Shown one piece after another: positions 21,521-60,314 of a DNA stretch of 64,000 bases (the first letter of the stretch is position 1; each line of letters starts with the position of its first letter). The notes beneath the pieces are model-generated. The model did no database searches and was not told where the DNA came from. It saw nothing but the letters and a program-made list of their open reading frames with translations. The DNA lies in contig CAIIXF020000009.1 of the NCBI GenBank assembly GCA_903813345.2, positions 33,545,259 through 33,609,258 on the forward strand. Direction: 5' to 3'. This DNA is from Owenia fusiformis. Lineage: Eukaryota; Annelida; Polychaeta; Sabellida; Oweniidae. The position numbers and the translations under genes are program-made.

Positions 21521-22674
21521 CAAAATGTCCCCACCTATGGGTGATCCCATCAAATGGTTATCCTAAAAATGAGTAGACAAGACTTTAACGACACAATTTG
21601 AGGATGGAAAATCCAATATGGCCACCTTAAAATTTACCCAGAGTGCCCAAAAATTAGTCAGTTCTAGATTTTCATACTAAGAATCATCCCTGAAAACTTG
21701 AAATTGATCTACCAAACGGTTCACCTGGAAATGCGTAGACAAGACTTTACAGACAAGATTTGAGGACGGAAAATCCAAAATGGCTGCCTTGACATTTACC
21801 CAGAATGCCCAAAAACTAATCAGATCTAGATTTTCATACTGAGAATCATCCCTGAAAATTTGAAATTGATCTACCAAATGGTTCACCTGAAAATGCGTAG
21901 ACAAGACTTTACTGACAAGATTTTAGGATGGAAAATCCAAAATGGCTGCCTTGACATTTACCCAGAATGTCCAAAAAGTAATCAGATCTAGATTTTCATA
22001 CTAAGAATCATCCCTGAAAATTTGAAATTGATCCACCGAATGGTTCACCTGACAACGTGCAGACAAGACTTTACACACGAGATTTTAGGACCGAAAAATC
22101 CAAAATGGCCGACAATAAAAAAGTGATTATGAGTTTTTGCTAATTTCTTTCAACAAAATTATCACATATAACTACTGTTAACAATAACATAGGCTTTTAC
22201 AACAAAGTACACCTGAAATTATTTATAAAGCTACTAAATAGTTTAAGTATGAAAACTGAATAACACCATTCAATATGATACAAAGTATTATCGTGCGCTA
22301 ACTTTTCTTAAAACATTCAAAATGGCTGACATGACTGAGCTTACAGGTCCAAAACCTAATCAGATCTAGAATGAAGTGAGCTGAACAAGATGTTAAAGTT
22401 TTAAAAGCAACTGTGAAGCCGTTTTTCTTAAAGTTTGCAGACAAGGATTTTAGCATTTGACTTCAAAATGGCCGACAGGAAGTTGGTATCGAGTTAATTT
22501 TTTTTCATCCACATCTGTATGCACTCATAAGTTATCCCTGAAAATTTGAAGGTGATATCTGTAGCGGTTTTGGAGAAAACTCCCGGACGTACGGACAGAC
22601 AGACGGACAGACAGACGGACGGACGCGCCTAGGCCGACAATATGGCCCCACACTATGTGGTGGGGACATAAAAA
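21521..22674 (+). mobile_element. Satellite-cored element, family B long form
   Basis: The left end AAAATGTCCCCACC is complementary to the right end GGTGGGGACATAAAA. The core has tandem modules of 162 bp: AAGACTTTA recurs at 21579, 21741, 21903 and 22065. The modules contain AAAATCCAAAATGGCTGCC and CTGAAAATTTGAAATTGAT. They are followed by a GGAC microsatellite (22585-22623), then a 3' hairpin GGCCCCACACTATGTGGTGG. This is the same order of parts as family A. The overlapping frames on the minus strand arise from the modules. Confidence 0.85.
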
Positions 22675-24593
22675 GTGTGTTGATTGGTCGATTGCCTCTT
22701 CATTATCACTTAGGTCTGATTAACTAAATTATCATTATATATACTTTTCTTGAAGAAAATGAATGGATCTAAAAGATATACCCATGTTCATGACCAGAAA
22801 ATATTAATAATTCAAGCTAGAATCGTTTGAAATTGTTTGCGATAACTTACGTGCTCTTTATAAAAAATATATATGGGGCCTTTAAATGATTGTACTCATT
22901 ATACTTTATGTTATATTTTCAGAATTGATAAGTACATAATGTTTATTTCATGAATTACTCAGAATTTACATTGACTGTATGCTGGTCCTCGGCCCAGACC
23001 TTCTGAGGAGTAATATATTTTACTATAAGTAACAAAATAACATGAATTGCTTTCTATATATTCATAGAAGATACTATATAAAAGCAGAAATTAAGAGATT
23101 GTCGGATAATAATTTAATCCCCAAGTGGCAGGTGCCATTTTTGTCAGTGGATAGTATATCTATATCATCACAGTTCATTGGCTGATCATATCAACGACCA
23201 GAATAAGTTATCCAACTCATTACGTTAAGTTTGCTCATTTAGTTACCCAACTGCATGAATGAAATTTCCCATTGTATTATGGTCCTGAATTGTGATATTG
23301 GGACTTGAATGATATGGGGAGAGGGGCATCAGACAGTGTTTCTCTTCACGTTGGATTATGGTTTGGGATAGTTCGGGTTTGTTTTCCTTATGACTGGTAT
23401 ACACATGAACATTTTCTTTTTCTTGCTGGATTTATAACAAATGGTCCTATACATACTATGTATCAAGTTTATATAACGTTTGTACAGAAGAAATAGCGGT
23501 TTGTACAATCAATCAATACAAAGTATATAAACATTTGCTTATAAAATGTGCAATAAAATAAATGAAAACCATTAATTGTTTGACAATAAATAAAGAAAGA
23601 GTATATGGAACGAATATATTTTCGAAAAAGAGGCCAAGATGACCTTTTTTTAAAATGATAATCAAACAAAGTCCATTTTTTCATATCATGTGCCAACTAT
23701 TGTATTGTGGCTAATGTAAGGCCTTAAAGACATTCAACCTTTTGTTCAATTTTCCCATAGATTTGATCAGAATAATTAATTCTGGAAATATGAATAATGT
23801 TTTTCCTCAGATGTCTATCAGACTCTCACAATATTTCATGTGATAATATAGTTTTTTTTATAATTGTCCACTTTTTTACATAAATTCCTTATTTACTCAT
23901 GAGATACCCCAAAGCATATCCGGCCATATGAAAACCAGTCAAATTCTCTCTTTATTTTACTTCGAAAAAACTCGGAGCAAATGATAAAACAATATGACAC
24001 AATAAATGTGATAAACATGCTGACATCAGATACCCCAGTGATAAACATGCTGACATCAGATACCCCAGTGATGTTCTATAAAATATAAATAAAGATATAT
24101 TCAGTCTTGCATGACTAACGATTGCTTGGGCTGGCATTCGATTTACTTCAGTGACTTCTATGCGGATAGCATCTATTTATACCCATTTTCGCTCACAAAT
24201 AATATTATTATCCAATAATATGAAACAAGAATGATGACTGATGCACAAATGCTATTACTCCCACTCAAGAGAAAATCTAAGCAAACAAAAAAATGTTGAA
24301 AAAATGATTCGAATGAATACTTCCGAGTTAAGCAATACTGAATACATCGCTAGCAATTGATAGTTAGCAATAAACAGTAAAGTCACACGAGCAATGAATT
24401 TAATCATTTCCATCTTTATGAACAACATTATTTATGGTATAACATGTAAATGAGGTCAACAAGTACACAATATATGATAACATAAAATATGTGACAATAT
24501 ATAAATTATCAAGAGCTCCCATACACTAGCCTCATTAGATGTTTATTGGCTCTTGCAAATAGAAAACAATTTAAGGCAACAAAAGGCATTATA
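22675..24593. other. No gene; 30-bp exact duplication at 24008-24067
   Basis: AT-rich DNA. GTGATAAACATGCTGACATC plus 10 more bases is repeated twice in tandem without change, suggesting a recent event. A 63-codon plus-strand frame at 23305 is unrecognised and lacks support. Confidence 0.5.
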
Positions 24594-24670
24594 AGCATTG
24601 ACATAAACAAGACATCATTAAAATGACCTCATGATTAACTTAGCTCGGTATCATAACAATAACCTCCCAA
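24594..24670. repeat. Degenerate 36-bp satellite units, left outlier
   Basis: AAAATGACCTCATGATTAAC and ATAACAATAACCTCC keep the spacing and key words of the main array at 25085. Confidence 0.55.
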
Positions 24671-24790
24671 GTGACCTTTTGCGATCAGAATTCAAGTATT
24701 TTGTTCATGGATACAGTTGTCATGTATTTTGTCTTATTGGTATGACGTCATATTAAGATAATATTAGACATGATGAAGATGAAATGGCGA
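24671..24790 (+). repeat. Left arm of a 1.7-kb inverted repeat
   Basis: GTGACCTTTTGCGATCAGAA, then GTATTTTGTTCATGGATAC, TTGTCATG and TATGACGTCATAT. It is the reverse complement, with scattered mismatches, of 26255-26384. Confidence 0.8.
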
Positions 24791-25084
24791 TGAAATTCAT
24801 ACTTAACATCATTGCCTATAAGTGACCCCATTTCATTATTAAGGAATAAAGACCAAAATTTTATGATTCATGGCGCAATAAGTGAAATTTTTTTATTATT
24901 GTTCTTTGGCAATGGCCAGCATAAAATTTGAGGTCATAACTTTGCCATAAATCAAAAATCGTTCTTACGATTCTAATATGGTAAACAGACAAGAAACACA
25001 ACTATTTGCATTTATAAATTTTAGCGGTCATACATACTTCAATATAGACCAGTAAATCAATTGTTCTAGCTACTGTGATGTAAC

Positions 25085-25470
25085 ATATCATATTAGAATA
25101 AACAATTATCTTAGAATTAATTGAACAGGGCATCATATCAATGACCTCACAATTAATTGAAGAGGGCACCATATCAATGATCTCACAATTAATTGAGCAG
25201 GGCATCATATCAATGACCTCACAATTAATTGAACAGGGCATCATATCAATGACCTCACAATTAATTGAACAGGGTATCATATCAATGACCTCACAATTAA
25301 TTGAACAGGGCACCATATCAATCATCTCACAATTAATTGAACAGGGCATCATATCAATGACCTCACAATTAAGTGGACAAGGAATCATAATAAATGTATT
25401 GAACAGGGTATTACATCAATGACCTCACAATTAACTGAACAGGGCATCAAGTTAATAACCTCACAATTGA
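25085..25470 (+). repeat. 36-bp satellite array, about 10 copies
   Basis: The unit reads roughly TCACAATTAATTGAACAGGG then CATCATATCAATGACC. The copies are highly alike in the middle and decay at both ends. Because 36 is a multiple of three, both strands carry periodic open frames (MTSQLIEQGIIS-type repeats). These are taken as by-products, not genes. Confidence 0.9.
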
Positions 25471-25767
25471 TGATTTGCGATCACTGGATGCATTTTATCT
25501 TTTTGTGATGTCCCAATTAGGTCACACTGCTATTAGCTTTTTGATTTTGAGAGATTATCTTCTGTATTTCGTACTTTATTGATTTATTTTTCACAAAAGT
25601 GTTCGATTTGACTAGATCAACATTCATTCTAAGCACATGCCAAGTCTAAGATCTTACTGACATGATTTAGATAGCGGTTAAGCACCCCCCTGATTTTGAA
25701 AAAAATGGGGGGCACTTATAGGCATCGATGTTTCGTATGAATATCATCGAAACTTCACACATATAAA
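25471..25767. other. Spacer in the inverted-repeat composite
   Basis: It begins GATTTGCGATCACTGG, resembling the start of the 24671 arm, so it may be a third, decayed copy of that boundary. CACCCCCCTGA and a nearby G run (25685, 25708) form a small hairpin. Confidence 0.4.
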
Positions 25768-26149
25768 CAGGGCTTGCATTAACGGCGTCCCGTACATGTT
25801 AAGGACTCAAAAATAATTTGGAGGACGCAAAAATTGAAAATATTTCCGTTTTTTGGACGCAAATTTTTTTAGGTCAATACTACAATGTGTTTACAACGAT
25901 ACCTAACAAACAAAAAAATAATTATGATCTCTCACCTTTATTTGAATCGTAAATAAGGCTCAACATGTTGAATATTTACAAATAATCATGATTCTCTCGA
26001 AGGTGTTTTGGTAAAAAATGCTTTTAAAATAAAGTTATACCTCAAAACAGGCTAGAAATAGGGGACACACTTTTTTTCCAAAGGACACACTTTTTAAAAA
26101 AAATTGCATCCTTGGGACTCACAAATTTTCTAACCTAATGCAAGCGCTG
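25768..26149. mobile_element. hAT-like MITE
   Basis: The ends CAGGGCTTGCATTA and TAATGCAAGCGCTG are inverted with one mismatch. TATAAA lies immediately outside both ends (25762-25767, 26150-26155) as a direct repeat. The interior has paired GGACGCAAA and GGACACACTTTTT phrases. A CAGNG terminus fits hAT. The flanking repeat is six bases seen, against the usual eight. Confidence 0.7.
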
Positions 26150-26254
26150 TATAAAGATATACTCATGATCTAGTCACATCGGCATACCTGGTAAATATCT
26201 AACCCATGGTTTTCATAAAAGAAACAATACCATTTTTAGCTCTAAACTGCCACG

Positions 26255-26384
26255 TGTCCGCCATTTCGTCTCTCCATCATGTTTAATATAATTTCTATAT
26301 GACGTCACACCAATAAGATGAAATGCATGACAACAGTATCCATAAACAAAATACCTGAATTCTGATCGCAAAAGGTCAATTAAA
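26255..26384 (-). repeat. Right arm of the 1.7-kb inverted repeat
   Basis: It contains ATATGACGTCACACC, TATCCATAAACAAAATACC and TGAATTCTGATCGCAAAAGG, mirroring 24671-24790. Confidence 0.8.
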
Positions 26385-26440
26385 TGGAAGGGGCATTATA
26401 GCAATGACTCATAGTTAACTGGACTGGATAAACAATGATC
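26385..26440 (+). repeat. Degenerate 36-bp satellite units, right outlier
   Basis: AATTAAATGGAAGGGGCATT, ATAGCAATGACTCATAGTTA and ACTGGACTGG keep the order of the main array's unit and the same orientation, although they sit outside the inverted arm. Confidence 0.6.
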
Positions 26441-28327
26441 TGACAATTTTAATATATATTTCTCGAATAGTATTTTGTATTCATTACCCAAATAAAATAC
26501 TAATTCTTACACATTCAATTTTGAGGCTGATGTTAATTTTCATAAAACCTTATCCTTTTTTACAACTGTTTTATAAAATTTCAATCAATTGCTTTTCACC
26601 TTATATAAAGCACACATAGCAGCTGCATATATCCATACTAATTGATTTTTGTAAAAGATCACTGAAGGTTTTTGAAAGTAATTAGAAAAATCATTCAAGT
26701 TCATTCTCCTGTACTTCACTGTCTATAGTGCTTCAGCTCTGAATCCAATGCTAATTTATTACATGCTTCACTTAATTCACAATGTTATAGTATTGCTATG
26801 GTGATACAACTGAATGTTGAAAAAGTTCAGATTTCCTCCAGGGACTTTGAATTCGTATGGTCCGAGAATGAATCTGGTTAAATTTCATCACGGCAATGAT
26901 GCATTGTGGAATTAATCTTGGAATTTATTCTAACATTGGTGAATTAAAACAATCTTCAAGGATAAATCCTAGGATTCTACCAACTCATCAAATATCTATC
27001 TGGATCAATTATCAAAAATTCATCCTAAAAGATAAAATTTATCCAGATAATATTCGGATAATACGCATTCACACGTTCATTCTTATAAGCAACCCTGAAA
27101 CCTTATCAATACCTATACCATCCTCTGACATTCAGGTGATTTTAAAGATTTGACCGGATCGGGAATAAGATCTCACTAACCTATCTCTGACAAAAAGTAG
27201 CTTCATGACATTTTATGGGATGTTGACTGTGAAAAATGTTAGCTTCGACAGAATGAAGGTTCCAAATGACATATTCTGATTGGAGTTTAGGTAGAATTGA
27301 CTAATACGCATGGTCATTAACATTATATCTCCTGCAATGCATCGCTTTAAGTGGGATAAATTTGCATTGGTCCGTTGATTAAACCAAATTCTCCCGTATT
27401 GTCGGGACGATAGAGTTTATACTAATATCAAATTACAACCCTCACAATTGATACAAGTCAAACATATATAAACCTGAAATCAAGCCATTTCAACATTTCA
27501 TGATTATCATCAGTTTCGAAAAATATTAGTGAAAATGCTTTGCAGGTTGTCATAAGGAAATTTATTTGTATTGATTGTGCAAATATATGTAAAGAAGAAT
27601 GTCAAATAAAGCTGAAATGATGTGTTAAAAATCAGACCCCGTATATTTCAATGGGGGAAAACCCGGAATTCGAACTCTCCAACACGGGAGGAAAAATATT
27701 GCAGTCATTCTGAACTATCGCGTGTTGCACTATTATCTAGAACTGTAAGCAGATAGACGAGGTCAGCTCTAGTTTATTTCAAATGTTGATTTTGAAACTT
27801 TTAACCAATTTTGTGGGATCTAGAAAGCCCGAATCTTGATTATTTACAAGTTCAATTTTTGGGATTCCTTCATCTTATTTTATACATAACCTTTATTGTA
27901 ACAAATCTTGGACATAAAATCCATAGCTTGACTTTAGTGTAACATTTCTTCATTTTCTGGTCATTTAAACACCTTGAGATCAACGTACAATGGTAATCGT
28001 ACACTGTTAAGTGGTCTATAAAGCCCCCTATAAAATATATTTATGAGGAAACGAGGATTAGCTAGGCTCAATGAAACAAAGTATTTGTTCAAATAATCGT
28101 CTTATTCAATGTCTTAAAACTTCAAGAGAAATAAAACAAAATAGGCTAGTGAATACGATATTGACATTAAAATGACAGAAAAAGAATAGTTTTTTAATTT
28201 TTTAATTTAATCTTAACAATAATGAAATAAATTATGTTTTGGGAGGGGTACAGTAATCCATAGTATTACATACCTAACGAAACATTTGCATAGAAGTCAA
28301 TGGGAAACTTAATGGGGTTTAACCATC
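26441..28327. other. No gene recognised
   Basis: AT-rich unique DNA. GAATTCGAACTCTCC at 27667 resembles a pol III B-box on the minus strand, but there is no cloverleaf around it. Confidence 0.45.
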
Positions 28328-28511
28328 GGTATTGCCCGCTAACACTGATATTGCCAACTTACACTGATATTGCCCGCTTATACTGATATTACCCACTTAC
28401 ACTGATATTACCCACTAACACTGATATTGCCCGCTTACACTGATATAACCCACTTACACTGATATTGCCCACTTACACTGATATTGCCCGCTTACACTGA
28501 TATTGCCTACT
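28328..28511 (+). repeat. 19-bp tandem repeat, about 9.5 copies
   Basis: The unit is ACACTGATATTGCCCGCTT, with G/A and C/A variants at the CCCGC part. Confidence 0.9.
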
Positions 28512-28953
28512 TTCTTTAATAATGATGACAATATCATGATGGCATTGGCATGTTTCATTTCCATCAAATAAAGGTATGAAATACATCAGTTATGTCACTA
28601 TGACATTAAACATGCTTTCGTTCTTGCCCAAATATAGATCATCCCAAGGGTGGCCTATATGTGCATAAATCAGGCATTTTACATCATAGGGACATAACTT
28701 CTAATTAGCACACTTTTAGTGAGAAGGAAGAGGTTAACTTGAAATTAGCAAAATCAATTTTACTTTTACATCAATCTTACATCATCTTATTTTGGGGTTA
28801 TATCCAAACATTGACCCCATCATTCATGAAAGATGTAGATTTAGTTATTGCTCAATTGTCAAAGAATAACAATAAGCCCATATTATTAGATTATCAGGGA
28901 CTTGGTCAGTCAGTATAATGGGAAATGTGAAGTTGGGGCTGGATGTCTTGATC
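28512..28953. other. No gene recognised
   Basis: AT-rich DNA without a recognised feature. Confidence 0.45.
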
Positions 28954-29260
28954 CTTCATTGGGGATGACCAGCTTTGGAGTGTCCTGATGGTATATGGGA
29001 TCAAAGCAAAGTACAACCCTCGTCTCTATTCATAACTGGACCTAGTGGTGGATCTTAATGGCCTCTCATTGTCTTCATTGGGGATGACCAGCTTTGGAGT
29101 GCCCTGGTGGTATATGGGATCAAAGCAAAGTACAACCCTTGTCTCTATTCATAACTGGAGTGGTGGATCTTAATGGCCTCTTTGTTGATTTTTCCTCATT
29201 GTCAAGGACAATTTCCATAAAAGAAAGGTCAAAGAGGCCATTAAGATCCATCAACTGGTG
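28954..29260. repeat. 119-bp tandem duplication followed by an inverted tail
   Basis: CTTCATTGGGGATGACCAGC starts at 28954 and again at 29073, and the two copies are nearly identical to about 29188. GTGGATCTTAATGGCCTC (about 29163) is then mirrored by GAGGCCATTAAGATCC (about 29232), making a hairpin. Short frames here are not supported as genes. Confidence 0.8.
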
Positions 29261-29684
29261 TCAATTTCTTCACGATGCTATGAGGTGCATATCTATTTTA
29301 TGCTGACCCATAATTCTTTAATTTATATCTTTCAGTGAAGGAATACATTTTTTGTTAAATGAAAACATGGTCATTTTCTTCACTAATACAAATCTACCTA
29401 TTCATCTAACATATTAACATCACATATCAGTATATGCCTCCTTAAAATGATAAAAACGTATCGCGTAGTATGAGCTTGTTATTTCTGCATAACCCGGAAC
29501 CAAGTTTATTAAAATCATATTTTTAGCCAAGCCCCGCAAACCTCAACATGTAATGAGGTCATGCAATAGGATACAATTAAGGAACTGATATTCTTATTAA
29601 CTCACATCAAAACAACATAATAGGTGTAATCACATGGATGAATGATATACATTAAAACCTGTTTTGTGGTTTACATATACTAAT

Positions 29685-30816: not shown

Positions 30817-33139
30817 CCATGTATTAGGAATGGGACAATTATGTATGGATTGGGATAGTTATGTATTAGGAATGTGACAGTTATGTATCAGGAATGGGAC
30901 AATTATGTATTAGAAATGGGACACTTATGTATTAGGAATGGGACAGTTATGTATTAGGAATGGGACAGTTATGTATTAGGAATGGGACAATTATGTATGG
31001 ATTGGGACAGTTATGTATTAGGAATGTGACAGTTATGTATTAGGAATTGGACAATTATGTATTAGAAATGGGACACTTATGTATTAGGAATGGGACTGAT
31101 ATGTATTAGGAATGGGACAGTTATGTATTAGGAATGGGAAAATTATGTATTAGGAATGGGAAAATTATGTATTAGGAATGGGACTGATATGTATTAGGAA
31201 TGGGACTGATATGTATTAGGAATGGGACAGTTATGTATTAGGAATGGGACAGTTATGTATTATGAATGGGACTGATATGTATTAGGAATGGGACTGATAT
31301 GTATTAGGAATGGGACAGTTATGTATTAGGAATGGGACAATTATGTATTGAATGGGACAATTATGTATTAGGAATGGGACAGTAATGTATTAGGAATGGG
31401 ACAGTTATGTATTTGAAATGTGCCAGTTATATTAGAAATGGGACAGATATGTATTAGGAATGGGACAGTTATGTATTAGGAATGGGATATTTATGTATTA
31501 GGAATGGAACAGTTATGTATTAGGAATGGGACAGTTATGTATTAGGAATGGAGCAGTCATTTATTAGGAATGGGACAGTTATGTATTAGGAAAGGGACAG
31601 TTATGTATGGATTGGGACAGTTATGTATTAGGAATGGGACAGTTATGTATTAAGAATGTGACAGTTATGTATTAGGAATGGGACAATTATGTATGGATTG
31701 GGACAGTTATGTATTAGGAATGTGACAGTTATGCATTAGGAATGGGACAGTAATATATATTAGGAATGGAACAGTTATGTATTAGGAATGGGACAGTAAT
31801 ATATATTAGGAATGTGACAGTTATGTATTAGGAATGGGACATTTATGTATTAGGAATGGGACAGTAATATATATTAGGAATGTGACAGTTATGTATTAGG
31901 AATGGGACAATTATGTATTAGGAATGGGACAGTTATGTATGAGTAATGGGACAGTTATGTATTAGGAATGTGACAGTTATGTATTAGGAATGGGACAGTT
32001 ATGTATTAGAAATGGGACACTTATGTATTAGGAATGGGACTGATATGTATTAGGAATGTGACAGTTATGTATTAGAAATGGGACAATTATGTATTAGGAA
32101 TGGGACAGTTATGTATTAGGAATGTGACAGTTATGTATTAGGAATGGGACAGTTATGTATTAGGAATGTGACAGTTATGTATTAGGAATGTGACGGTTAT
32201 GTATGAGTAATGGGACAGTTATGTATTAGGAATGAGATAGTTATGTATTAGGAATGGGACAGTTATGTATTGGGAATGGGACAGTTATGTATTAGGAATG
32301 GGATAGTTATGTATTAGAAATGGGACAGTTATGTATTAGGAATGTGACAGTTATGTATTAGAAATGGGACAGTTATGTATTAGGAATGTGACAGTTATGT
32401 ATTAGGAATGTGACAGTTATGTATTAGGAATGTGACAGTTATGTATTAGAAATGGGACAGTTATGTATTAGAAATGGGACAGTTATGTATTAGGAATGTG
32501 ACAGTTATAATAGAAATGTGATATTTATGTATTAGGAATGGGACAGTTATGTATTAGAAATGGGACAATTATGTATTAGGAATGGGACAGTTATATATTA
32601 GGAATGGGACAGTTATGTATTAGGAATGGGACAGTCATGTATTAGGAATGTGACAGTTATGTATTAGAAATGGGACAGTTATGTATTAGAAATGGGACAG
32701 TTATGTATTAGGAATGGGACAGTTATGTATTAGGAATGGGACAGTTATGTATTAGGAATGTGACAGTTATGTATTAGGAATGAGACAGTTATGTATTAGG
32801 AATGTGACAGTTATGTATTAGGAATGTGACAGTTATGTATTAGAAATGGGACAGTTATGTATTAGGAATGTGACAGTTATGTATTAGGAATGTGACAGTC
32901 ATGTATAGGAATGTGACAGTTATGAATTAGGAATATGACAGTTATCTATTAGGAATGTGACAGTTATGTATTAGGAATGGGACAGTTATATATTAGGAAT
33001 GGGACAGTTATATTAGAAATGGGACAGTTATGTATTAGAAATGTGACAGTTACATTAGAAATGGGATATTTATGTATTAGGAATGGGACAGTTACGTATT
33101 ACGAATGGGACAGTTATGTATAAGGAATGGGACAATTAC
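30817..33139 (+). repeat. 22-bp minisatellite, about 105 copies
   Basis: The unit is ATGTATTAGGAATGGGACAG plus TT. Common variants are TGTGACAG, AGAAATGGG, ACAATT, ACTGAT and a 20-bp ATGTATGGATTGGGACAG form. A seven-unit block including the 20-bp form recurs 152 bp apart at 30832 and 30984, which is higher-order structure. TGTGAC variants cluster after about 32090. It has no open frame. Confidence 0.95.
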
Positions 33140-34652: not shown

Positions 34653-35727
34653 AACTAGAAAAACAGCAACTCCAAGGAGTAGCAAATCCCACCGAACAAA
34701 ACGTATTTTGATAATAAGTGGCAATCTTGAAAATTTCTTCTTGAGCAGAGCTTCTTTGTCCCTAAGTAGCAGCATATAAAATTTGACCCAAGTCTTTCAA
34801 CTGATATTATCACATTTTTAATGACAAATGGCAGCCATTTTTATAAAAATTGGCCATCTTTAAATGACTTCTTGACCAGACCACGATTATCTCTAAGCAT
34901 CGGCATATAAAATTTGAACCAAATCCATTGACTTGTATTTGATTGATCAAAAATTAAAGATAACATTTTTTATGAAGAATGACGGCCATTTTGAATTTCA
35001 GCTGTCATCTTAAAAAATTCCTCCCAACCAGATTTCCTTTGTTCCTAATCATCAGCATATACAATTTGAACCAAATCCATCATCTGATATTTGAGTTATC
35101 AAAGATAACGTTTTTTAACAACAAATGGTCGCCATTTTAAAATTCAACAGCCATCTTGAAAATTCCTTCTTGAGCAGAGCTTGTTTGATCCTAAGCATCA
35201 ACATGTAAAATTTGAACCATATGATTCCACTGGTATTTGAGTTATCAAAGATCAAGTTTTTTTTATGAAAAATGGCGGCCATTTTGAAATTCAGTGGCCA
35301 TCTTGAAAATGTCTTCTTAAGCCGAGCTTCTTTGTCCCTTGGCATCATCATATAAAATTTCAACCAAACCCGTCAATTGGCATTTGAGTTATCAAAGATT
35401 ACATTCTTTTAAGAAAAATGGCAGCCATTTTGAAATTTAGGCTTCATCTTGAAAATTCTTTCTTAAACAGATTTTCTTTGTCCTTAGAAATCAGCATATA
35501 GAATTTTAATTAAATCCATTCAATGGTATTTCAGTTATCAAAGTTTATGTTTTTATATGAAAAAAGGCAGGGGTCCTATACCCATAAGGCATGAGTCTAT
35601 AAAATTTGAATCAAAACTGTTGACCGGTATTTGATGAACGAATTAACAGCCAGAGGGAAATGGACAGAAGGACAGAAGTATGAATGGCTTTCCTATATCC
35701 CTCACAAACCTCGTTCGGTGGGATAAT
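34653..35727 (+). mobile_element. Satellite-cored element, family A, complete
   Basis: The 5' end is AACTAGAAAAACAGCAACTC, continuing to AGCAAATCCCACCGAAC. The core consists of 130-150 bp modules with ATCAGCATATAAAATTTGAA and AAATGGCGGCCATTTTGAAA. A weak GGAC-like stretch (GGACAGAAGGACAGAAG) and the end CTCGTTCGGTGGGATAAT follow. The 5' ATCCCACCGAAC is the complement of the 3' end. Confidence 0.85.
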
Positions 35728-42326: not shown

Positions 42327-43650
42327 AACTAGAAAAACAGCAACTCCACGGAGTAGCAAATCCCACCGAACAAAACATGTTTTGATAAAAAAATTGAGCC
42401 AAATTCATCCACTGGTATTTGAATTATCAAAGATTATGTCTTTATGAAACATGGTTGCCATTTTGAAATTCAGCTGTCATCTTTAGATTTCTTCTTTAGC
42501 AGAGAATGTCCTTCCAATGGTATCTGGGTTATCAAAGATTACTTTTTTAATGAAAAATGGCAGCCATTTTGAAATTTCTTCTGAAGCAGATCTCATTTTT
42601 CCCTAAACATCAGCATATAAAATTGGAACCAAATCCATCCACTAGTATTTGAGTTATCATTACTTACGTTTTTTTAAGAAAAATGGCGGCCATTTTGAAA
42701 TTCAGTGGCCATCTTGAAAATTTATTTTTGAGCAGAACTTCTTTGTCTCTAAGCATCAGCATATAGAATTTTAACAAAATCCGTCAACTAGTATTTGAGT
42801 TATCAAAGGTTACGTTCTTTTATGAAAAATGGCGGCCATTTTGAAATTTAGCTACCACCTTGAAAATCCCTTCTCGAGTAGAGCTCATATGTCCCTTGAC
42901 ATCATCATGTAAAATTTGAACCAAATCCATTCAATGGTAATTGAGCTATCAAAGATAATGTTCTTTTATGAAAAATGGCCGCCATTTTGAAATTTAGCTG
43001 CCATCTTGAAAATCCTTTCTTGAGCAGAGCTCCTATGTCCCTAGGCATCCGCATCTAAAATTTAAACCAAATCCATTCAATGGTATTTGAGTTATCAAAG
43101 ATAACGGTTTTTTTACGAAAAATGGCCGCCATTTTGAAATTTAGCTGCCATCTTGAAAATCCTTTCTCGAGCAAAGCTCCTATGTCCCTAGGCATCAGCA
43201 TCTAAAATTTGAACCAAATCCATTCAATGGTCTTTGAGTTATCAAAGATAACGTTTTTTTTACGAAAAATGGCCGCCATTTTGAAATTTGGTGACCATCT
43301 TGAAAATGTCTTCTTGAGCAAGGCTGCTTTGTACCAAGGCAACAGCCTATAAAATTTGAACCAAATCCATCCACTAGTATTTGAGTTATTAAAGATTATA
43401 TTTTTTCCGAAAAATGGCCGTCATTTTGAATTAAGCGGCCATATTGAAAATTCCTTCTCGAGCAGAGGTCCTACACCCGTAAGGCATAAGCCTATAAGAT
43501 TTGAATGAAATCCGTCAACCGGTATTTGAGTTATAGCTTGGACACACGAATGGACGGACGGACGAACGGACGGACGGACGAACGGACGGACGAACAGACG
43601 GACGGACGGCTTTTCTATATCCCCCTCGAACTTCGTTCGGTGGGATAATA
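42327..43650 (+). mobile_element. Satellite-cored element, family A, best complete copy
   Basis: The 5' end AACTAGAAAAACAGCAACTC includes ACTCCACGGAGT (a small hairpin) and AATCCCACCGAAC. The modules repeat about every 145-147 bp (TATCAAAGATAAC at about 42946, 43091, 43238) and each carries AAAATGGCCGCCATTTTGAA. A GGAC/GAAC microsatellite (43553-43610) precedes the 3' hairpin CGAACTTCGTTCG and the end GTGGGATAAT. It lies within the large POLD2 intron. Confidence 0.9.
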
Positions 43651-47440: not shown

Positions 47441-48303
47441 TCATCAGTTTGTTTTAAAATTTCAATTTTCAATTTAAATCAGAAGTAATTTACACCTTAT
47501 CACATTCCATATTGTTAAAGGTGCTGATCCTCTCATTGATGTCAATCACGTTGTGTTCATTTCATGACATTGGCTTTCCAAGGGGCCTATTATAACAATG
47601 ACTTTGAGGGTGATAATAACTCTACATTAAAGTGTTACAAAATCCAGGGTACAGATCCTATTATTATCATTTCTGCTCGCTCGCTTAACAAATGAACCCA
47701 GAAACAACTTGACTTCAAAGAAAGCCTCTTTTCCCTGACAAAATATACACCATCGTCGGTACCCTCACTGAATAACTATTCTCAATGGATAGGTCGAAAG
47801 ATTGATAAAGCAAGATGATAAACGTTGTTTTGGACAAGAGTCAAATTTTATCTTTTACAAGCATCTCATAAATTCTAAATTCTTTTTCTATCCTATTAGT
47901 CATTTAAAATTTGAGACTTTAACAAAAGGTTGCAATAATCAGTGGATTGTATTGTAATGCTACTTTGATAATGAAATCTCAATGATAGAAGATAATTCAT
48001 AAAATAAAACAGAAATAAAATCTATTAGAATGATTAGTTTATATTCGAAAATGGCCAAGATGATACAAATCAATGGGTATAACTTGACTCTTGTCAATTA
48101 CATTAGCTTTTACAGAAAATAGTTTATTTTGAAATACAAAAAAAATCAATAATAAAAAAAGATTAATAAAAAAATTCAGTTATTTCACCCATTGATCAAG
48201 GCACAGGTTGAACAATATTGAACTTCAAAATCAAATATGATTAATTAATCTTTGGGAAGAAAAGATCAAAACAAAAATAAACAAAAACAAGGTGATAACA
48301 TGC

Positions 48304-48414
48304 AAAATGTCACCACCTGCCATTTGTTATAGATGCCTAACACTGACCACGGGACATAGCCCACAAAAAAAGAGACTATAACAAAATGTCACCACTTGTG
48401 GCAGTGACATAAAA
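48304..48414 (+). mobile_element. Family B MITE, complete
   Basis: AAAATGTCACCACCTGCCAT at the left. AAAATGTCACCACTTGTGGC and AGTGACATAAAA at the right form the 3' hairpin. Confidence 0.85.
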
Positions 48415-48608
48415 AGGCTGATTTATTTGGGGGAACAAACTATCACTTGTAATAATTTAGTAAGCATTTTTATCCCAGATTAAAGTGAGATTCAATTTTT
48501 ATAAAAGTACAATTTTTCCTGAAGAGGATGAAACTAAGTATCCACTGGTGCTCAGTGAATTCAAGTATAAGCTCATTTGTATTATATAAATTCTCTGCAT
48601 AAGCTCAC

Positions 48609-49743: not shown

Positions 49744-50273
49744 CTGATAAGAATAGAAACACGTCAAATATTAAAATGTAAATGGCTATATGTTGCTGAT
49801 TAACTAATACCTTATAGGATTTTAACACTAGACTCTATAAGAGACTTAACCTGTTCAGACTAATGATGACAAAAATACATATCTTGAAAAAAGGATGTAT
49901 TCCATGACATATTAAGTGATATTTTTAACAAAGAACATCATGCAACATAGTCACTATTGCTACAGAATTTGCTTGGATGTCACGACAATGAAGCTTTATT
50001 GCTATACATATCCATGTATTTTCTACAAAACATGTTACGAATGAAGTATCATTATATTAATCTGGGGGCCCTTAACAGAAACTTTGTAAAGTTAAGAATT
50101 TGTAAAATCCATTGTTCTCTAACTGTGACGTCATTAAATTCGTAACTTTTACAAAAAGTTTCTGTTAATGACCCCCTGAAGATGTTTATGTTTTTTACTC
50201 AGTTTTAAGATGAAATGTGAAAACGTGGCATACTAATGCATCATGTAATAACTCTTAAAGGCATTCACATTAC
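49744..50273. other. Probable POLD2 intron sequence; no exon found
   Basis: AT-rich DNA immediately upstream (minus-strand sense) of exon a. AAACTTTGTAAAGTTA and TAACTTTTACAAAAAGTTTC (50080-50165) form an inverted pair. Confidence 0.5.
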
Positions 50274-50550
50274 AAAATGTCACCACCTTGTTGTTCAAAT
50301 CTCAAATCTAAAGTCAGATTTGAACTTCTGAGAACTTGTAGATGATTTTGAAAAAAGGTCAATTTGAAGCAAGTTGAAAAAAATACCTTTTTGACCTTTA
50401 GAAGGTCATTGAAGGTTAATTAAGTTATTGGAAGATGTAAGAATTTGTTACAGACGCCAACTGGCACCCACCAACCACCGACCACCAACTGCCGTCACGA
50501 ATAAAACAGAGACCAAACAATATGTCACCACTTTTTGGTGGTGACATAAA
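50274..50550 (+). mobile_element. Chimeric family B element with a family C core module
   Basis: The left end AAAATGTCACCACC and right hairpin ATGTCACCACTTTTTGGTGG are family B. Between them, AAATCTAAAGTCAGATTTGA, TTCTGAGAACTTGTAGATG and AGAAGGTCATTGAAGGT are modules otherwise found in the family C core at 54990-55060 and 55580-55670. The usual TTGTTACAGACGCCAAC with CCAACCACCGACCACC follows. Confidence 0.85.
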
Positions 50551-52870: not shown

Positions 52871-53130
52871 TTCAATTCAACAAGACACACAGCGATAATT
52901 ATTCCATGTTTATAAAAGCAAAATAGTAGTCATGTGATTTACCCAGCATGCCCAAACTTAATAAGATGTTGCCACCTAAGTTTGCATTTCTAAAAATTTA
53001 AAGATAAATTGGCTGTACTGTAATGTTTTATTCTGAAATTTTGATGGGAAAATTTATATGGTGCCCCCTGTATTCTGCAAAGCAGCACAAGAGGCTGACG
53101 ACAATAAAGCGCTTTTTAAAGTACAATTAA
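52871..53130 (+). mobile_element. Family C element, short and decayed
   Basis: ACAAGACACACAGCGATAAT at the left, TTTACCCAGCATGCCCAAAC inside, and GACGACAATAAAGCGCTTTT at the right. These are the same words in the same order as at the ends of 54463-56055, with only one internal module. Confidence 0.65.
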
Positions 53131-53851
53131 AAATAGGGAGATTTCCATTTTCATTACGTCATATCAGACTCATAACTGGATACTCATCACAACTTTTTGT
53201 TTGTGAAAACTCTCCTAGAAAGGTATTGATAGATATTTCTTTAATTGGCATGATTGTATCAAAACATGATACAGAGACTAGGCTGTCAGAAGTCTGGAAT
53301 CTCTCACGATCTGTATGTCAGGATGCAATATGGCTAGCCAATAGGGATTCATGTTATTATGTCGATATCCTCATAATCAAAGTGAAATGTCGGGGGAGGT
53401 CATATTCTAAAGTGGAAGATGATATTACAATTATAACAATCTCTATATAAAAGCTTTGTTATCAGTCCAAGGTCATAACACACAGGAATCAGATGAAATA
53501 ACAATGAAAAAATTCAATCAAATTGTGAATCTGTCATTCCAGTTCATGAGAATATAACAGTAAAACAACAATATGTTTAATATTGACAGGCTAGAACCAC
53601 AAATGCCATGTTTCCAATGGTTCATTGAGATAAACAACTTCAACAATGACGTCAGTTTAGCTTTACATTAACGTAAAAACAATGAAAATCACTCAATTAA
53701 AAGTGACATGTGACATACATCGATTCCCCAGAGTAGCAAGTCACACCAAACAAAACATATTTTATCACTGATCATTTTGAACATGATAGAAATAAGGCAG
53801 TAGTAATTTCTCATTTTGGCAAAATCTACATCCATGATGAAATGTGACATA
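53131..53851. other. No accepted gene; 130-codon plus-strand frame
   Basis: A frame from 53058 to 53450 starts within the family C relic and runs on into unique DNA. It has no recognisable domain or splice context, so it is not called. Confidence 0.4.
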
Positions 53852-54175
53852 CCCTTTGCATTCGTTCGACTTTACTTTTTAAAAAAGAGCTCCGTCTTCA
53901 CTCTTTCAATTTACAAGATCTCACCGAGCTAATCAGAAATCGTTGTCGAAATATGGACGACTTGGTCATTTCCTCTGACATCCAACATAGTTAATGAGCA
54001 TGTATTTAGCACATGTTCCTTCCACTTCACTGATTGGTTGAGAAAGGGTCAGCGTGGTAGATTTGAAATGATTTATTACCCAGGCTGTCACAGGCACCAA
54101 TTTTCGGGGCGGGGCTGCTAAACTGTAATATAGTCTCTACTAGGCAGAGGGTAGTTTATAACTAGACTCTGGGCG
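53852..54175. mobile_element. Family J repeat, second copy
   Basis: CCCTTTGCATTCGTTCGACT, then TTGTCGAAATATGGACGAC, CTGATTGGTTGAGAAA and TACTAGGCAGAGGGTAGTTT align with 17474-17910. The right terminus is missing. Confidence 0.7.
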
Positions 54176-54462
54176 CAGGGTAACCATGACACCATATTAG
54201 TTGTTGACTAGAGGTCTTATGTCCATATGACATTATCTTATAAAAAGGACAAAAACAAATGACTAGTACATTTACTTGTACATCGTCAGAAATTATATTT
54301 CTCCTGCAGAATATTGCTGTGAAAATTATATTTTACAATTCCTTTAAGACAACAGCTTATAAATTTGGACCAAATCTGATAATTGGTATTTAAGTGATCA
54401 TGGAAATGGTGACTGACAGAAAGTGTGACAGAAATCATAAAAACAAGACACACAGTGATAAA

Positions 54463-56055
54463 TATCGCACTTTGAAGAGCAAACTGGCCACCATGCAATT
54501 TACCCAGCATGGCCAAAACCTAATCAGACCTTGGCACTAGTCTGCTCTTGCATCTGTAAACATTTCAAGTTGACAAGGTTAGCGGTTTTCCTGCAATTTT
54601 GATGACAATTGATTTGTAGTCTCAAACTTTGAGAAACTTGGATAACATCATTTGTAACCTAGTTTAATGACCTTGACCTTCGACCTTGAAAATTTCACTT
54701 TTTCAGACCTCAGTAGGTCTTTTGTAATTAAGCTGACCTAAATTTAAATCCAAAATATCAATTTAGAAAATCAACTTTTTTGACCTTTTCAAGGTTACTG
54801 AAGGTGAATGAAAGGTCAAATCTGTGACCTAGTTTAATGACCTTGACCTTTGACCTTGAAAATTTCACTTTTTCAGACCTCAGTAGGTCTTTTGTAATTA
54901 AGCTGACCTAAATTTAAATCCAAAATATCAATTTAGAAAATCAACTTTTTTGACCTTTTCAAGGTCACTGAAGGTGAATGAAAGGTCAAATCTGAAATCT
55001 AAGGTCAGATTGGAACTTCTGAGAACTTGTAGATGTTTTTAAAAAAAAATTGGTCAATTTGGAGCAAGTTTAAAAATTCAAAATGGGCGCCAAATTGAAA
55101 AATTCAAAATGGCCACCATGTAATTCAGCCAGCATACCCAAAACCTAATCAGATCTTGGCAATAGTCTGCTCTTGCATCTGTAAAAATTTCAAGTTGAAC
55201 AGATAAGTGGTTTTCCTGAAATTTTGATGACAAGATTTGTTGAAAAATTCAAAATGGCTGCCACGTAGTTTACCCAGCATGCCCTTAACCTAATCAGATC
55301 TTGGCACTAGTCTGCTATTGCATGTGTAAAAATTTCAAGTTGAACAGGTTAGCGGTTTTCTTGGAATTTTGATGACAAGAATTGATTTGTAGTCTCAAAC
55401 TTTGAGAAACTTGGATAACATCATTTGTGACCTAGTTTAATGACCTTGACCTTCGACCTTGAAAATTTCACTTTTTGCAGACCTCAGTAGGTGTTTTGTA
55501 ATTAAGATGACCTAAATTTAAATCCAAAATATCAATTTAGAAAATCAACTTTTTTGACCTTTTCAAGGTCACTGAAGGTGAATGAAAGGTCAAATCTGAA
55601 ATCTAAGGTCAGATTTGAACTTCTGAGAACTTGTAGATGTTTTAAAAAAAAAGATTTGGTCAATTTGGAGCAAGTTGAAAAATTCAAAATGGCCACCATG
55701 TAATTCAGCCAGCATACCCAAAACCTAATCAGATCTTGGCAATAGTCTGCTCTTGCATCTGTAAAAATTTCAAGTTGAACGGATAAGTGGTTTTATTGGA
55801 ATTTTGATGACAAGATTTGTTGAAAAATTCAAAATGGCCGCCACGTAGTTTACCCAGCATGCCCTTAACCTAATCAAATCTTGTTACTAGTCTGCTCTTG
55901 CATCTGTAAAAATTTCTAGTTGAACAGGTAAGCAGTTATCCTGGAAATTTGATGACAAGATTTGGTTCATGTGCCACCCGCCCGCACGCCCGCCCGCCCG
56001 CCCGCCCAACAGCACAAGACGACGACAATATAGCACTTTTTCAAAGTGCGATAAA
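54463..56055 (+). mobile_element. Satellite-cored element, family C
   Basis: The left end ATCGCACTTTGAAG is the complement of the right end CTTTTTCAAAGTGCGATAAA, and GCACTTTTTCAAAGTGC is itself a 3' hairpin. The core mixes a 170-bp module (AGTTTAATGACCTTGACCTT at 54661 and 54831, again near 55436) with a second module (TTCAAAATGGCCACCATGTA, AGTCTGCTCTTGCATCTGTA). A 580-bp block recurs at 55101 and 55681. A CCCG microsatellite (55977-56007) precedes the 3' end. The flanks GGACCAAATCTG at 54372 and 56060 look like family A-type sequence split by this insertion. Confidence 0.88.
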
Positions 56056-56931
56056 AGTTGGACCAAATCTGTTGTTAGGCATCTGAGCTATCAAAGAAAA
56101 CAATTTCAAGAAAATGACAAATTAAGCAGCCAAATTATTCAGAAAATGTGTCATCTTGTTTCTGAGATATCAGCTGACTTATTTTAATTGGATGATGAGC
56201 CAATGGGTTATGAAGAGTAGTATTTAGCTGACTTAGATGTACTTAGATGTACTTAGTAGGCCTTCATCTATCTCTGAATTATCCTGAAGGAAATGTACAT
56301 TTGTACATGGTCAAGATTTAAATCAACTAAATTCATTCTGCAATTCATCACCATCCAAACCATGATTTTTTCAAAAATATATTTATACCTAAAATTACAT
56401 AACTGGATGTTCTTCATCCTTCCAACTATATTGCATTGTCACTAAAAGGAAAGCCGTTATTCCTGAGCTGGAAAACCTCTGAACCCACTTTTCAATGCTA
56501 CGGCTCAGGTGTCACATAAAAGTGCACCCCGTTCAGACTGTGAAACCAAAGAAAATCTGACATCCTTCCCAGAATACAATACCGTGGGATCCATGCTGTC
56601 TTCTAGGAAAGACGTAAGAATCATCAGAACTGCTAGGCATATTTACTCAATAAAACCAAATAAATAAATTAACAAGTCGAAGGTTAGAATGTCCTGACCC
56701 CATCAATTTTCAATCTAATCCATAACAAAAAAAGATAACAAGTGCCGGTTAAAATGCCAGTCTCCGGTGAAATATGTGATGGCAACAGTTAGGTTTTCTT
56801 ATCATGGATGACACCTGTTGTTTTTAGCAGCCAGTAGCAACAGGTTGTTATTCTAGCAGAGCAGAACACTGCTATTATGGATCTACTTGGCAACAGTAAG
56901 AATGATGCCTACTAAAAACCTATTGTCTGAC
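56056..56931. other. No gene recognised
   Basis: After family A-like words to about 56150 the DNA is unique. 56460-56620 is slightly GC-richer, with short open frames on the minus strand and no known match. Confidence 0.4.
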
Positions 56932-57486
56932 CCAATGTCAAACAACAATGACCCAATGCAATGTCGAACAATGACCCAATGTTGAACAATGACCCAATGT
57001 CAGACAATGACCTAATGTCAAACAATAACCCAATGTCAGACAATGACCCAATGTCAGACAATGACCCAATGTCAAACGATGACCCAATGTCAGACAATAA
57101 CCCAATGTCAAACAATGACCCAATGTCAAACAATGACCAAATATCAGACAATGACCCAATGTCAGACAATGACCCTGTGTCAAACAATGACCAAATGTCA
57201 AACAATGACCCAATGTCAGACAATGACCCTGTGTCATACAATGTTCCAATGTCAAACAATGACCCAATATCAAACAATGACCCAATGTCAGACAATGACC
57301 CTGTGTCATACAATGATCCAATGTCAAACAATGACCCAATGTCAAACAATGACCCTATGTCAGACAATGACTAAATGTCAAACAATGACCCAATGTCAGA
57401 CAATGACCCAATGTCAAACAATGACCCTATGTCAGACAATGACCCTATGTCAAACAATGACCCAATGTCAAACAATGACCGAATCC
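56932..57486 (+). repeat. 18-bp minisatellite, about 31 copies
   Basis: The unit is ACAATGACCCAATGTCAG, with A/G variation at the last base and occasional CCCTGTGTC or CCAAATGTC variants. Since 18 is a multiple of three, four long periodic frames (SDIGSLFDIGSL-, NNDPMS- and TMTQCQ-types) arise on both strands. None has unique flanking coding sequence. Confidence 0.93.
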
Positions 57487-58060
57487 TATGGTAAAATATT
57501 ATTAGGAAATACTTTTGGAAAATCTGTCTGAAACAAAAAAGGTGGCCCGTGCTCAAAGAAAAAAGTTACATTTTAAAATTCTAAAGGTCTCTCATTTAGG
57601 GTTACACATATTTCTTTTACATCTCCTAATAATCTTTCCAATGACTACCTTAAGCAACTTTAATATTACATCAGTCACATTTTCAAAATCATAGGATGTC
57701 CTCTTTATTCTAGTTAAGGTGTGCTTGTCATGTCATGTTCTTTACCTATAAATATCTATAAGAAATAAATAGCAATGTGTATATATGGTATATCGTGTTA
57801 AAACGTTTATGAAAACAGTAACATATAATATTTTACAACTTCATGAATAAACAAATAAATGAATGATCAGTCAAAAGTAAATAATCATCAGTCATTGGTC
57901 ATACTAATCAACGATTTTAACAGTTCATCTTCAGAATCATCTGAAATTAAATTGTTGAACTCAAATTTCTCAAGTGACTCGGCCATAACTACCAGCCTCC
58001 TTTTGAGTCAAGTAGCAAAATTCTATAATCCGTAGGATAATGCACCATATTCTACGGTTT
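57487..58060. other. No gene recognised
   Basis: AT-rich spacer between the minisatellite and the satellite-cored elements. Confidence 0.45.
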
Positions 58061-58620
58061 AACTAGACAACAGCAACGCCAAAGCTTAGCAAATCCCATC
58101 GAACAGCCATGGCTGGCATTTAAAAAAAAAGTATTTAGCAAAAATGGCAGCCATTTTTCAAAATGGCCACCTTTAACCAAAAGTGTCATTAGACAGTGTG
58201 CCATGCTTATAGTATTCACATACCAAATATTAACAAAATCACTCCACTTCTTTTTGAGTTATAGTAAAATACGTTTAAATGGTGGTCATTTTGAAAAATG
58301 CCATGTTCTTCTTAATATCTACATTTCTAGCTTTATTAATGTCCTATATAATTTTTTTACTTTTAAAACATATTGCTATTACAGTTTTACATATTGCACC
58401 TAAAATACTGTAAAATCGCCACTAAAATGGCCGCCATTTTTAAATGAGCAGCCATTTTGAAAATCGGCTTTTGAGCAGAACTTCTACCCCCATAGGGTAT
58501 ATGTGTACAAAATATGAACAAAATCGGGCCAAGGGTATTTGAGTTATTGCCCGGACGGACAGATGGACAGACGGACGGAGGCATTCCCTATATCACTCCT
58601 AACTTCGTTCGATGGGATAA
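58061..58620 (+). mobile_element. Satellite-cored element, family A2, copy 1
   Basis: The 5' end AACTAGACAACAGCAACGCC continues to AGCAAATCCCATCGAACAG with the palindrome CAGCCATGGCTG. The core holds AAAATGGCAGCCATTTTTCA, and a GGAC stretch and the end AACTTCGTTCGATGGGATAA follow. It is a sister of family A with the same end logic but different modules. Confidence 0.85.
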
Positions 58621-58736
58621 AAACTGTATTCGATAGTTAAGTGAAAATTTGTCAAAAATATCATATTTTACCACCGATAACAAAAATATAATTCTTATTT
58701 TGACACAATATCCTGTGAATATCATGGTAAATATAG
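58621..58736. other. Spacer whose right half is duplicated
   Basis: TGACACAATATCCTGTGAAT (58701) and the bases up to the next element recur 808 bp later, at 59509. Confidence 0.8.
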
Positions 58737-59501
58737 AACTAGACAACAGCTACGCCAAAGCATAGCAAATCCCATCAAACAGCCATGGCTGGCATTTTTA
58801 CAAACAAAGTATATAGCAAAAATGGCAGCCATTTTTCAAAATGGCCACCTTCTACCAAAAGTGTCACATTGAAATCGCTCTACTACTTTTCGAGTTATGG
58901 TAAAATACCTTGAAATGTTGGCCATTTTTCAAAATGGCCACCTTTTACCAAAAGTGTCATTAGACAGTGTGCCATGCTTATAGTTTTCACATAGCAAACA
59001 TGAACAAAATCGCTCCACTACTTTTCGAGTTATACTAAAATACGTTAAAATGGCAGCCATTTTTCAAAATGGCCGTCTTCTACCAAAAGTGTCATTAGAC
59101 AGTGTGCCATGCTTATAGTATTCGCATACCAAATATGAACAAAATCGCTCCACTTCTTTTCGAGTTACAGCAAAAATCGTAAAATAACGAGTAAAGGCCA
59201 CCATTTTTCAAGATGTCTGCCATGTGCTTCTTTAATATCTACATTAGATATGTCCTATATCATTTTTTTACATTTAAAACATATTGCTATTACAGTTTTA
59301 CATATTGCACCTAAATTACTGTAAAATCGGCACTAAAATGGCCACCATTTTTAAATGAGCAGCCATTTTGAAAATCTGCTTTCGAGTAGAACTTCTACCC
59401 CCCATAAATGTGTACAAAATATGAACAAAATCGGGCCAATGGTATTTGAGTTATTGCCTGGATGGACGGAGGTATTCCCTATATCCCTTCAAACTTCATT
59501 T
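58737..59501 (+). mobile_element. Satellite-cored element, family A2, copy 2 (3' end lost)
   Basis: It starts AACTAGACAACAGCTACGCC. The modules repeat ATGGCAGCCATTTTTCAAA and TTAGACAGTGTGCCATGC. It stops at CCTATATCCCTTCAAACTTC without the terminal hairpin and runs straight into the duplicated flank. Confidence 0.8.
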
Positions 59502-59544
59502 CATATTCTGACACAATATCCTGTGAATATCATGGTAAATATAG

Positions 59545-60314
59545 AACTAGACAACAGCTACGCCAAAGTGTAGCAAATCCCATCAATCAGCCATGGCTGG
59601 CATTTGCAAAAATGGCAGCCATTTTTCAAAATGGCCACCTTCTACCAAAAGTGTCACATTGAAATCGCTCTACTACTTTTCGAGTTATGGTAAAATACGT
59701 TGAAATGTTGGCTATTTTTCAAAATGGCCGCCTTTTACCAAAATTGTCATTAGACAGTGTGCCATGCTTATAGTATTCACATAGCAAACATGAACAAAAT
59801 CGCTCCACTACTTTTCGAGTTATACTAAAATACGTTAAAATATCTTCTACCAAAAGTGTCATTAGACAGTGTGCCATGCTTATAGTATTCACATACCAAA
59901 TATAAACAAAATCACTCCACTTCTTTTCGAGTTACAGCAAAAATCGTAAAATAACGAGTAAAGGCCACCATTTTTCAAGATGTCTGCCATGTGCTTCTTT
60001 AATATCTTCATTAGATATGTCCTATATCATTTTTTTACATTTAAAACATATTGCTATTACAGTTTTACATATTGCACCTAAATTACTGTAAAATCATTAC
60101 TAAAATGGCCGCCATTTTGAAATGAGCGGCCATTTTAAAAATCGGCTTTCGAGCAGAACTTCTACTCCCATAGGGTATATGAGTACAAAATATGAACAAA
60201 ATCGGTCCAACGGTATTTGAGTTATTGCCTGGACGGACAGACGGACGGACGGATGAACATACGGACAGACGGAGGCGTTCCCTATATCCCTCCGAATTTC
60301 GTTCCATGGGATAA
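59545..60314 (+). mobile_element. Satellite-cored element, family A2, copy 3
   Basis: It starts AACTAGACAACAGCTACGCC and carries the same modules as copy 2 with one partly deleted. A longer GGAC microsatellite (60230-60275) and the end TTTCGTTCCATGGGATAAT follow. Confidence 0.85.

Follow-up and report, generated by a model that had tools for sequence, protein, structure and literature searches.

Non-autonomous Helentrons, termed HINEs, and their terminal plan were defined in 2014 (Thomas, Vadnagara & Pritham, PMC4067079). HINE/DINE-1 elements and Helentrons are described there with subterminal inverted repeats (subTIRs), a palindromic subTIR or an inverted repeat nearby, a microsatellite or tandem repeats, a 3' palindrome, insertion at TT with T's on either side, and a partner encoding Rep, helicase and endonuclease, of which HINEs are deletion derivatives. 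In Crassostrea gigas, 11 Cg_HINE elements with TT insertion, some unrelated in all modules, were reported (Vojvoda Zeljko et al. 2020, PMC7492417), and this paper already documents several HINE end-families, unrelated to each other, within a single bivalve genome. The present analysis concerned repeated elements with conserved ends (families A, B, B2 and C) in a window of Owenia fusiformis DNA, that is, the whole stretch of 64,000 nucleotides analysed, which is part of contig C9 of the 498-Mb genome. These elements are very probably several HINE families, protein-less relatives of the rolling-circle Helentrons, which encode one Rep (HUH)-PIF1-AP-type endonuclease protein.

The elements share all of the above features of HINE/DINE-1 elements and Helentrons and show no difference in kind from them; a coding partner found here for family B has tandem modules in its 5' part, which the relevant passages of PMC4067079 do not state for partners. 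They resemble the Cg_HINE elements in the number of families per genome (several), in monomers mostly of 140-180 bp, in a GTCC-type microsatellite and in TT insertion. Unlike in the oyster, where according to the relevant passages a link to autonomous partners could not be made, two families were linked here to partners, and whereas a module cluster is tied to one end pair there, homologous modules lie in the different ends of B and C here (PMC7492417; likened by description). The pearl elements CvA, CvE and CvG (Gaffney 2003, cited in PMC11136912 and PMC7492417), likewise compared by description, also combine unlike sequences with one structure and central repeats of ~160 bp. Canonical Helitrons have in common with the present elements the Rep-helicase, a 3' palindrome near a terminal CT-tetramer and the absence of an ordinary target duplication (PMC4067079), but the elements here lacked a 5' TC, were inserted at TT and not between A and T, and had partners with an endonuclease domain. 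The first-pass annotation of the window had likened three families, A, B and C, to pearl elements and HINEs of one common plan; the resemblance, the plan, a common TT insertion rule and a Rep/helicase partner for two families are supported.

Exact end words were counted in the whole genome on both strands and compared with the reversed words. The A word occurred 1710 times (884 + 826) vs 13 (9 + 4), the B word 2627 times (1339 + 1288) vs 140 (76 + 64), and the C word 1064 times (516 + 548) vs 49 (29 + 20). The A, B and C end structures are real and far above chance. Family B as first described consisted of two families, one modular with the subTIR ATGTCCCCACC (B) and one with ATGTCACCACC (B2); the subTIRs of A and C were ATCCCACCGAAC and ATCGCACTTTG. 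All four subTIRs fitted ATNNCMC and the 3' termini were mostly CTWGT, and the earlier statement that the families share no end sequence was too strong. In a post hoc test, the four identical subTIR columns of A, B and C were matched by 1362 of 200000 letter shuffles.

The anatomy of the copies was examined in 20 end-paired copies per family for A, B and C (the first listed on contig C1, among 100 places listed per family), to which two A, one B and one C copies from the window were added (n = 64; 22 A, 21 B, 21 C); the A3-type (a subfamily of A) and short B2 copies of the window were outside this sample. The 64 copies had subTIRs of 11-15 bp, one at the 5' end and one internal to the 3' end; apart from a few from the window, the copies were picked by exact end words, so that the match between the ends of a copy is not independent evidence, and the support comes from the genome counts of the words. 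Orientation was assigned by the longer complementary arm (at least copy L095 and probably L056 were inverted, and one side of L060 was cut out of register). Read in the direction of the partner gene, a copy consists of host TT, the subTIR and its complementary arm, a microsatellite, modules, an inverted subTIR, a palindrome, CTAG or CTTG, and host T. The gene of the B partner identifies the end with the hairpin and the microsatellite as the Helentron 5' end; the first-pass annotation had the elements reversed, and its 5' end was the 3' subTIR.

An inverted arm of at least 5 nt, complementary to the end word and no more than 45 nt away, was found at the better end of 21/22 A, 20/21 B and 21/21 C copies. 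With both ends shuffled and the better one taken, the means were 7.8, 8.4 and 8.2 copies, so that under an equal rule the claimed hairpin arm was confirmed in 62/64 copies vs ~24/64 shuffled; a laxer control in which the better of two ends was not taken gave 5, 9 and 2 copies (16 in total). The microsatellite was present in 18/22 A, 20/21 B and 20/21 C copies (58/64; shuffled means 0.4, 3.7 and 6.1, ~10 in total). Beyond the inverted subTIR, the 3' end consisted of a palindrome followed by CTAGT (A) or CTTGT (B and C), which had gone unnoticed before. The last five bases were CTTGT in 20/21 B and 19/20 C copies, and in A (n = 20) they were CTAGT in 15, CTAAT in 3 and CTTGT in 2. The short palindrome near the 3' terminus was seen for A; the stems of B and C were short and were not the predicted fold of lowest energy. 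End words, hairpins, microsatellites and tandem modules were located where the first-pass annotation had put them (A and C within a few bases), and its common order of parts held for A, B and C, but not for the short B2 copies of the window, which had neither module nor microsatellite.

Flanks were counted in the 61 copies with a readable 3' tail (A_L050, A_L056 and C_L075 were left out). The 5' flank was TT in 58/61 copies, and a T followed the CTWG position in 60/61; of the exceptions, only L062 (TA) is genuine, as L060 has TT when read in register and L095 was wrongly oriented. Joined flanks were compared with uninterrupted copies within the fetched loci and the window. Empty sites of A, B and C had a single TT, vs TT on both sides when filled. 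They were found for C_L071 in a host tandem repeat (98.3% alike, with 2 nt as the sole difference), B_L102 (95%), B_L094 (92.7%, inside a C element), B_L093 (89.6%), the B copy of the window (84.7%) and A_L065 (81%). At all six sites the joined flanks had 2 extra T's at the junction, although for B_L093 the count was blurred by poly-T and a neighbouring change. When the flanks of A_L065 were joined with a single TT, 40 genomic matches of 93-96% over all 140 nt were obtained (40 of 2019 candidates scored), the best one equal in length and the remaining ones 6-8 nt longer. The TT target is thus common to A, B and C, and the element ends coincided with the insertion boundaries at TT, one diverged junction apart (B_L104, below). 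Spanning matches such as A_L057 (74%, 7 gaps) and similarly weak ones were not used as empty sites, nor were the junction matches of C_L085 and B_L096, which were inverted self matches at an element end, or that of C_L073, which was unclear (81%). The host sequence of A_L065 was itself repetitive, with at least 40 copies 93-96% alike (including C6:33442273), and L094 (C1:2509756-2511803) held a B HINE inside the 5' part of a C element, which made its empty site a nested one.

The extra TT may be either a duplication or the element's own T's; the sequence is compatible with both, and the same uncertainty is described for Helentrons (PMC4067079). A net gain of TT vs empty sites, together with inverted repeats at both ends, would also suit cut-and-paste transposons resembling miniature inverted-repeat transposable elements (MITEs) that have short terminal inverted repeats and duplicate a TT target, and pearl elements were first named MITEs (PMC7492417). 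That origin is hardly credible here, as the 3' inverted repeat is subterminal, with the palindrome and CTWG outside it, and the coding partners identified have a Rep, a PIF1 helicase and an endonuclease (no search was made for DDE elements with these ends).

A profile search with PF14214 gave 58 matches in the genome (59/59 candidates scored), of which the one at C1:4667175 is flanked by two B ends, C1:4661045 (+) and C1:4673213 (-). The element so bounded is 12.2 kb long (C1:4661045 to about 4673246). It starts with TT and ATGTCCCCACC, its first 50 bases being identical to the B HINE consensus, and ends with GGTGGGGACAT, a palindrome and CTTGT; the B subTIR is thus present letter for letter at both ends. 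It also has a GTCC/GTCT microsatellite, and the 162-bp module of family B is repeated 3.1 times in it. Identity to the fetched B copies was 83.9-92.4% over 1.0-1.1 kb in 19/20 (~800 nt in L095), and to the B copy of the window 89%. The open reading frame (ORF) of 2053 aa matched DUF6570, Helitron_like_N (2e-25), PIF1 (9.9e-29) and Exo_endo_phos (9.7e-6), that is, it combined Rep, PIF1 helicase and a C-terminal AP endonuclease in one frame, as in Helentrons. Its Rep stretch FWRNEFQQRGSVHSH has F-W-R and an S after RG; a nearby F/Y-x-R and an S after RG in Rep motif 2 are Helentron marks (PMC4067079). In loci L111/L112 (C1:4665069-4671228), the protein starts with some 330 residues of a charged KKKRENEEYRTSER-like repeat, and part of the coding region recurs at 84% in the element's own 3' region (C1:4668528 vs about 4671842).

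A chance assembly, in which 5' and 3' parts of B HINEs happen to surround an unrelated Helentron gene, would agree with the single intact copy known and with the degraded state of the second copy, on C2. It is very unlikely, since no further B end was found within the 12.2 kb at no more than 2 mismatches, except for the hairpin arm, and the orientation of the ORF fits. The C2 copy (C2:24601785; 75-88% identity, with stops) has kept this arrangement of its coding and 3' parts. The partners of family B2, described next, likewise have the gene followed by the 3' end, and the boundary is common to 4/4 copies read.

Relatives of the B protein were searched with its last 1688 residues (28 of 197 candidates scored). 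Those on C11, C6 and C10 had ~52% identity and unbroken frames, that on C47 had 46% and one stop, and 22 further loci had 31-33% identity. Beyond the genes of the first four, AATTGTTTTAGGTGGTGACATTTTGTCATGTTAATGCCTTGT was found in 4/4, after which the sequences diverge; this is a B2 3' end. Coding elements with the B2 subTIR at their 3' ends were thereby located at C6:5179124, C11:29204585, C10:10906625 and C47:9075; the identification is by the 3' end only. Their domains are known by alignment to the B protein, with matches extending to the end of the endonuclease. The last 31 bases of the B2 partner end before the final T had 2938 occurrences in the genome at no more than 2 mismatches (control 0).

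The search for autonomous Rep/helicase elements with the same ends, which the first-pass annotation had proposed, thus succeeded for B (both ends) and B2 (3' end), but not for A and C. A and C partners were searched by the bases just inside the 3' subTIR, and a partner identical to the HINEs at these positions would escape such a search. For A it gave 60 matches, the single one inspected (L001) being a HINE variant and not a partner. At these 60 genome places, including C1:73419 and C158:17157, the 3' subTIR is preceded by two bases other than T, mostly CC, and L001 is a modular HINE with CC in this position. For C there was one match, C8:5985697, with no Rep match nearby (PF14214, 59/59 candidates; B-protein search, 28/197). 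Among the matches listed, every exact A, C or B2 end was more than 60 kb from the Rep element at C1:21115714, and none of 30 Rep loci, which reach only 1.5 kb either side of the Rep match, matched the window elements. The expected 3' region (L114) of the Rep element at C5:30807401 held a single end, an A3-type 5' end of opposite strand; none was assignable to the gene. The C ends at C1:670288 and 683859 were considered as one long element and dropped, as no Rep match was listed between them, and the 3-kb loci at these two places had no tblastn match to the B protein. Among the Rep matches, 23 had open frames of at least 3000 residues; 17 of these were on contigs outside C1-C12 (C13, C515, C505 and other small contigs), with several per contig, and most of those fetched were 79-99% alike in DNA.

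According to the first-pass annotation, one transposition machinery reads structure rather than sequence. A single Helentron protein moving all families through the terminal fold (hairpin and palindrome) and a minimal ATNNCMC/CTWG signature would account for the plan, the TT target, the CTWGT terminus and the ATNNCMC core that the families have in common, and A and C are abundant yet without a partner seen. This alternative is improbable, although it may still hold for A and C, because the end letters of every partner identified are those of its own family: the B partner has the B subTIR at both ends and the four B2 partners have the B2 subTIR at the 3' end, each with its own 3' tail, which a sequence-blind machine would not need. 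In subfamily A3, moreover, the same base is changed at both ends, so that the end letters stay matched. The claim of one shape-reading machinery was left unsupported, and related machines, each matched to one end sequence, fit better.

Several observations weigh against the interpretation of the elements as HINE families with Helentron partners. Neither the end-adjacent bases nor the B-protein relatives (28 of 197 scored) yielded a coding partner for A or C. The B2 partners are linked by the 3' end, and each B2 copy of the window is 4-5 differences away from the 31-base partner end. When up to 4 edits were allowed, seven B2 ends were detected in the window, all of them 4 edits from the partner end, mostly with a base missing in TTTTGTCATG; the window copies are therefore an older or separate B2 subfamily, and the 11-base B2 subTIR was exact in some window copies. 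The Rep motif of the B partner differs from the published form twice (N for V/I and V for P/L). Only one intact autonomous B copy is known, the second, on C2, having stop codons. Upstream of the 3' subTIR no likeness was seen by eye between the B HINEs and the B partner, which leaves a simple deletion origin unproved at that end. The junction of B_L104 was opposite, with 2 nt more in a diverged counterpart (86% alike). Rolling-circle movement, finally, is inferred and is not demonstrated by sequence alone.

By analogy with Helentrons, each partner's Rep-helicase-endonuclease would nick at the TT/AT and CTWG/T borders; one strand would be peeled off by rolling-circle replication and then inserted at TT, with the 5' hairpin and the 3' palindrome as putative start and stop signals. 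The B HINEs would be internal-deletion derivatives of a B-type autonomous element and the short B2 HINEs would be deleted further, and A and C would be mobilised by partners other than those found.

Tandem Repeats Finder confirmed the module lengths of 146 bp (A), 162 bp (B) and 170 bp (C) given by the first-pass annotation, and C also had modules of 145 bp. The 162-bp module of B and the 145-bp module of C had a local alignment score of 92 (maximum of 200 shuffles 29) and, judged by this alignment, are homologous although the ends are not; the families are accordingly not three unrelated ones, as had been held. The A module scored 32 with the 145-bp C module (shuffle maximum 31) and 26 with the B module (as high in 1/200 shuffles), over ~20 bases in both cases, and the 135-bp A3 module scored 30 with the 145-bp C module (shuffle maximum 29). 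The 170-bp C module had no match to other modules beyond shuffles. It also lacked AAAATGGC, so that the claim that all modules carry AAAATGGCNGCC failed; AAAATGGC had 65 sites in the window on both strands, 55 of them inside 7.9 kb of elements. Homologous B and C modules behind unlike ends indicate partly separate histories of ends and modules. It is a tentative possibility, somewhat less than even, that the 140-170 bp modules, of which the 162-bp one occurs inside the autonomous B element, are an inherited Helentron 5' part and not captured, and that they move between end-families, with one lineage behind the B and C ends.

The elements of the window are listed in Table 1. The B protein had no match anywhere in the window in a tblastn-type comparison. 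The three A3-type HINEs stand in a row (58063-60312), and the stretch ACAATATCCTGTGAATATCATGGTAAATATAGAA is identical before the second and the third, which suggests that element and flank were duplicated together rather than inserted independently. Minisatellites were present at 25115-25468 (36 bp x 10), 28330-28512 (19 bp x 9.6), 30819-33138 (22 bp x 106) and 56959-57484 (18 bp x 29).

Table 1. Predicted HINE copies in the window, by family (window coordinates)
Feature	Position	Strand	Remarks
Family A HINE, truncated by window start	1..571	-	5' end at 571
Family A HINE A1	34655..35724	-	Low end: 3' tail CTAG and palindrome; high end: 5' end with hairpin
Family A HINE A2	42329..43646	-	146-bp modules 42563-43534; GGAC microsatellite 43552-43609
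Family A HINE, subfamily A3	58063..58618	-	ATCCCATCGAAC; identical C-to-T change at both ends
A3-type HINE, further copy	58739..59510	-	Degenerate 5' end, high end approximate; module ~135 bp
A3-type HINE (copy placed at 59545 by the first-pass annotation)	59547..60312	-	Degenerate ends
Family B HINE	21503..22669	-	162-bp modules 21551-22109; paralogous empty site 21139-21220
B2 copy	9249..9367	-	Damaged 5' end, high end approximate
B2 short HINE	15735..15849	-	Without modules
B2 short HINE	19384..19488	-	Without modules
B2 short HINE	48288..48410	-	Without modules
B2 short HINE	50262..50547	-	Degenerate 3' tail, low end approximate
Family C HINE	54444..56052	-	170-bp modules 54653-55001; CCCG microsatellite 55977-56007
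145-bp modules of family C HINE 54444..56052	55095-55384 and 55674-55964	-	

The end rule of these elements is known Helentron anatomy. The link to coding partners is a useful addition, although a partner may already be recorded in Repbase or in other literature; the relevant passages of PMC8268682 and PMC10294476 name no partner. Coding elements that share ends with such HINEs are hereby named for two families of this genome, a point left open in the relevant parts of the oyster study (PMC7492417). That an autonomous element contains the satellite-like modules is relevant to the question whether repeats of this kind are captured or intrinsic. If the modules are inherited and mobile between end-families, the ends would evolve and swap separately from the satellite-like modules, and these transposons would be a standing source of dispersed satellite DNA.

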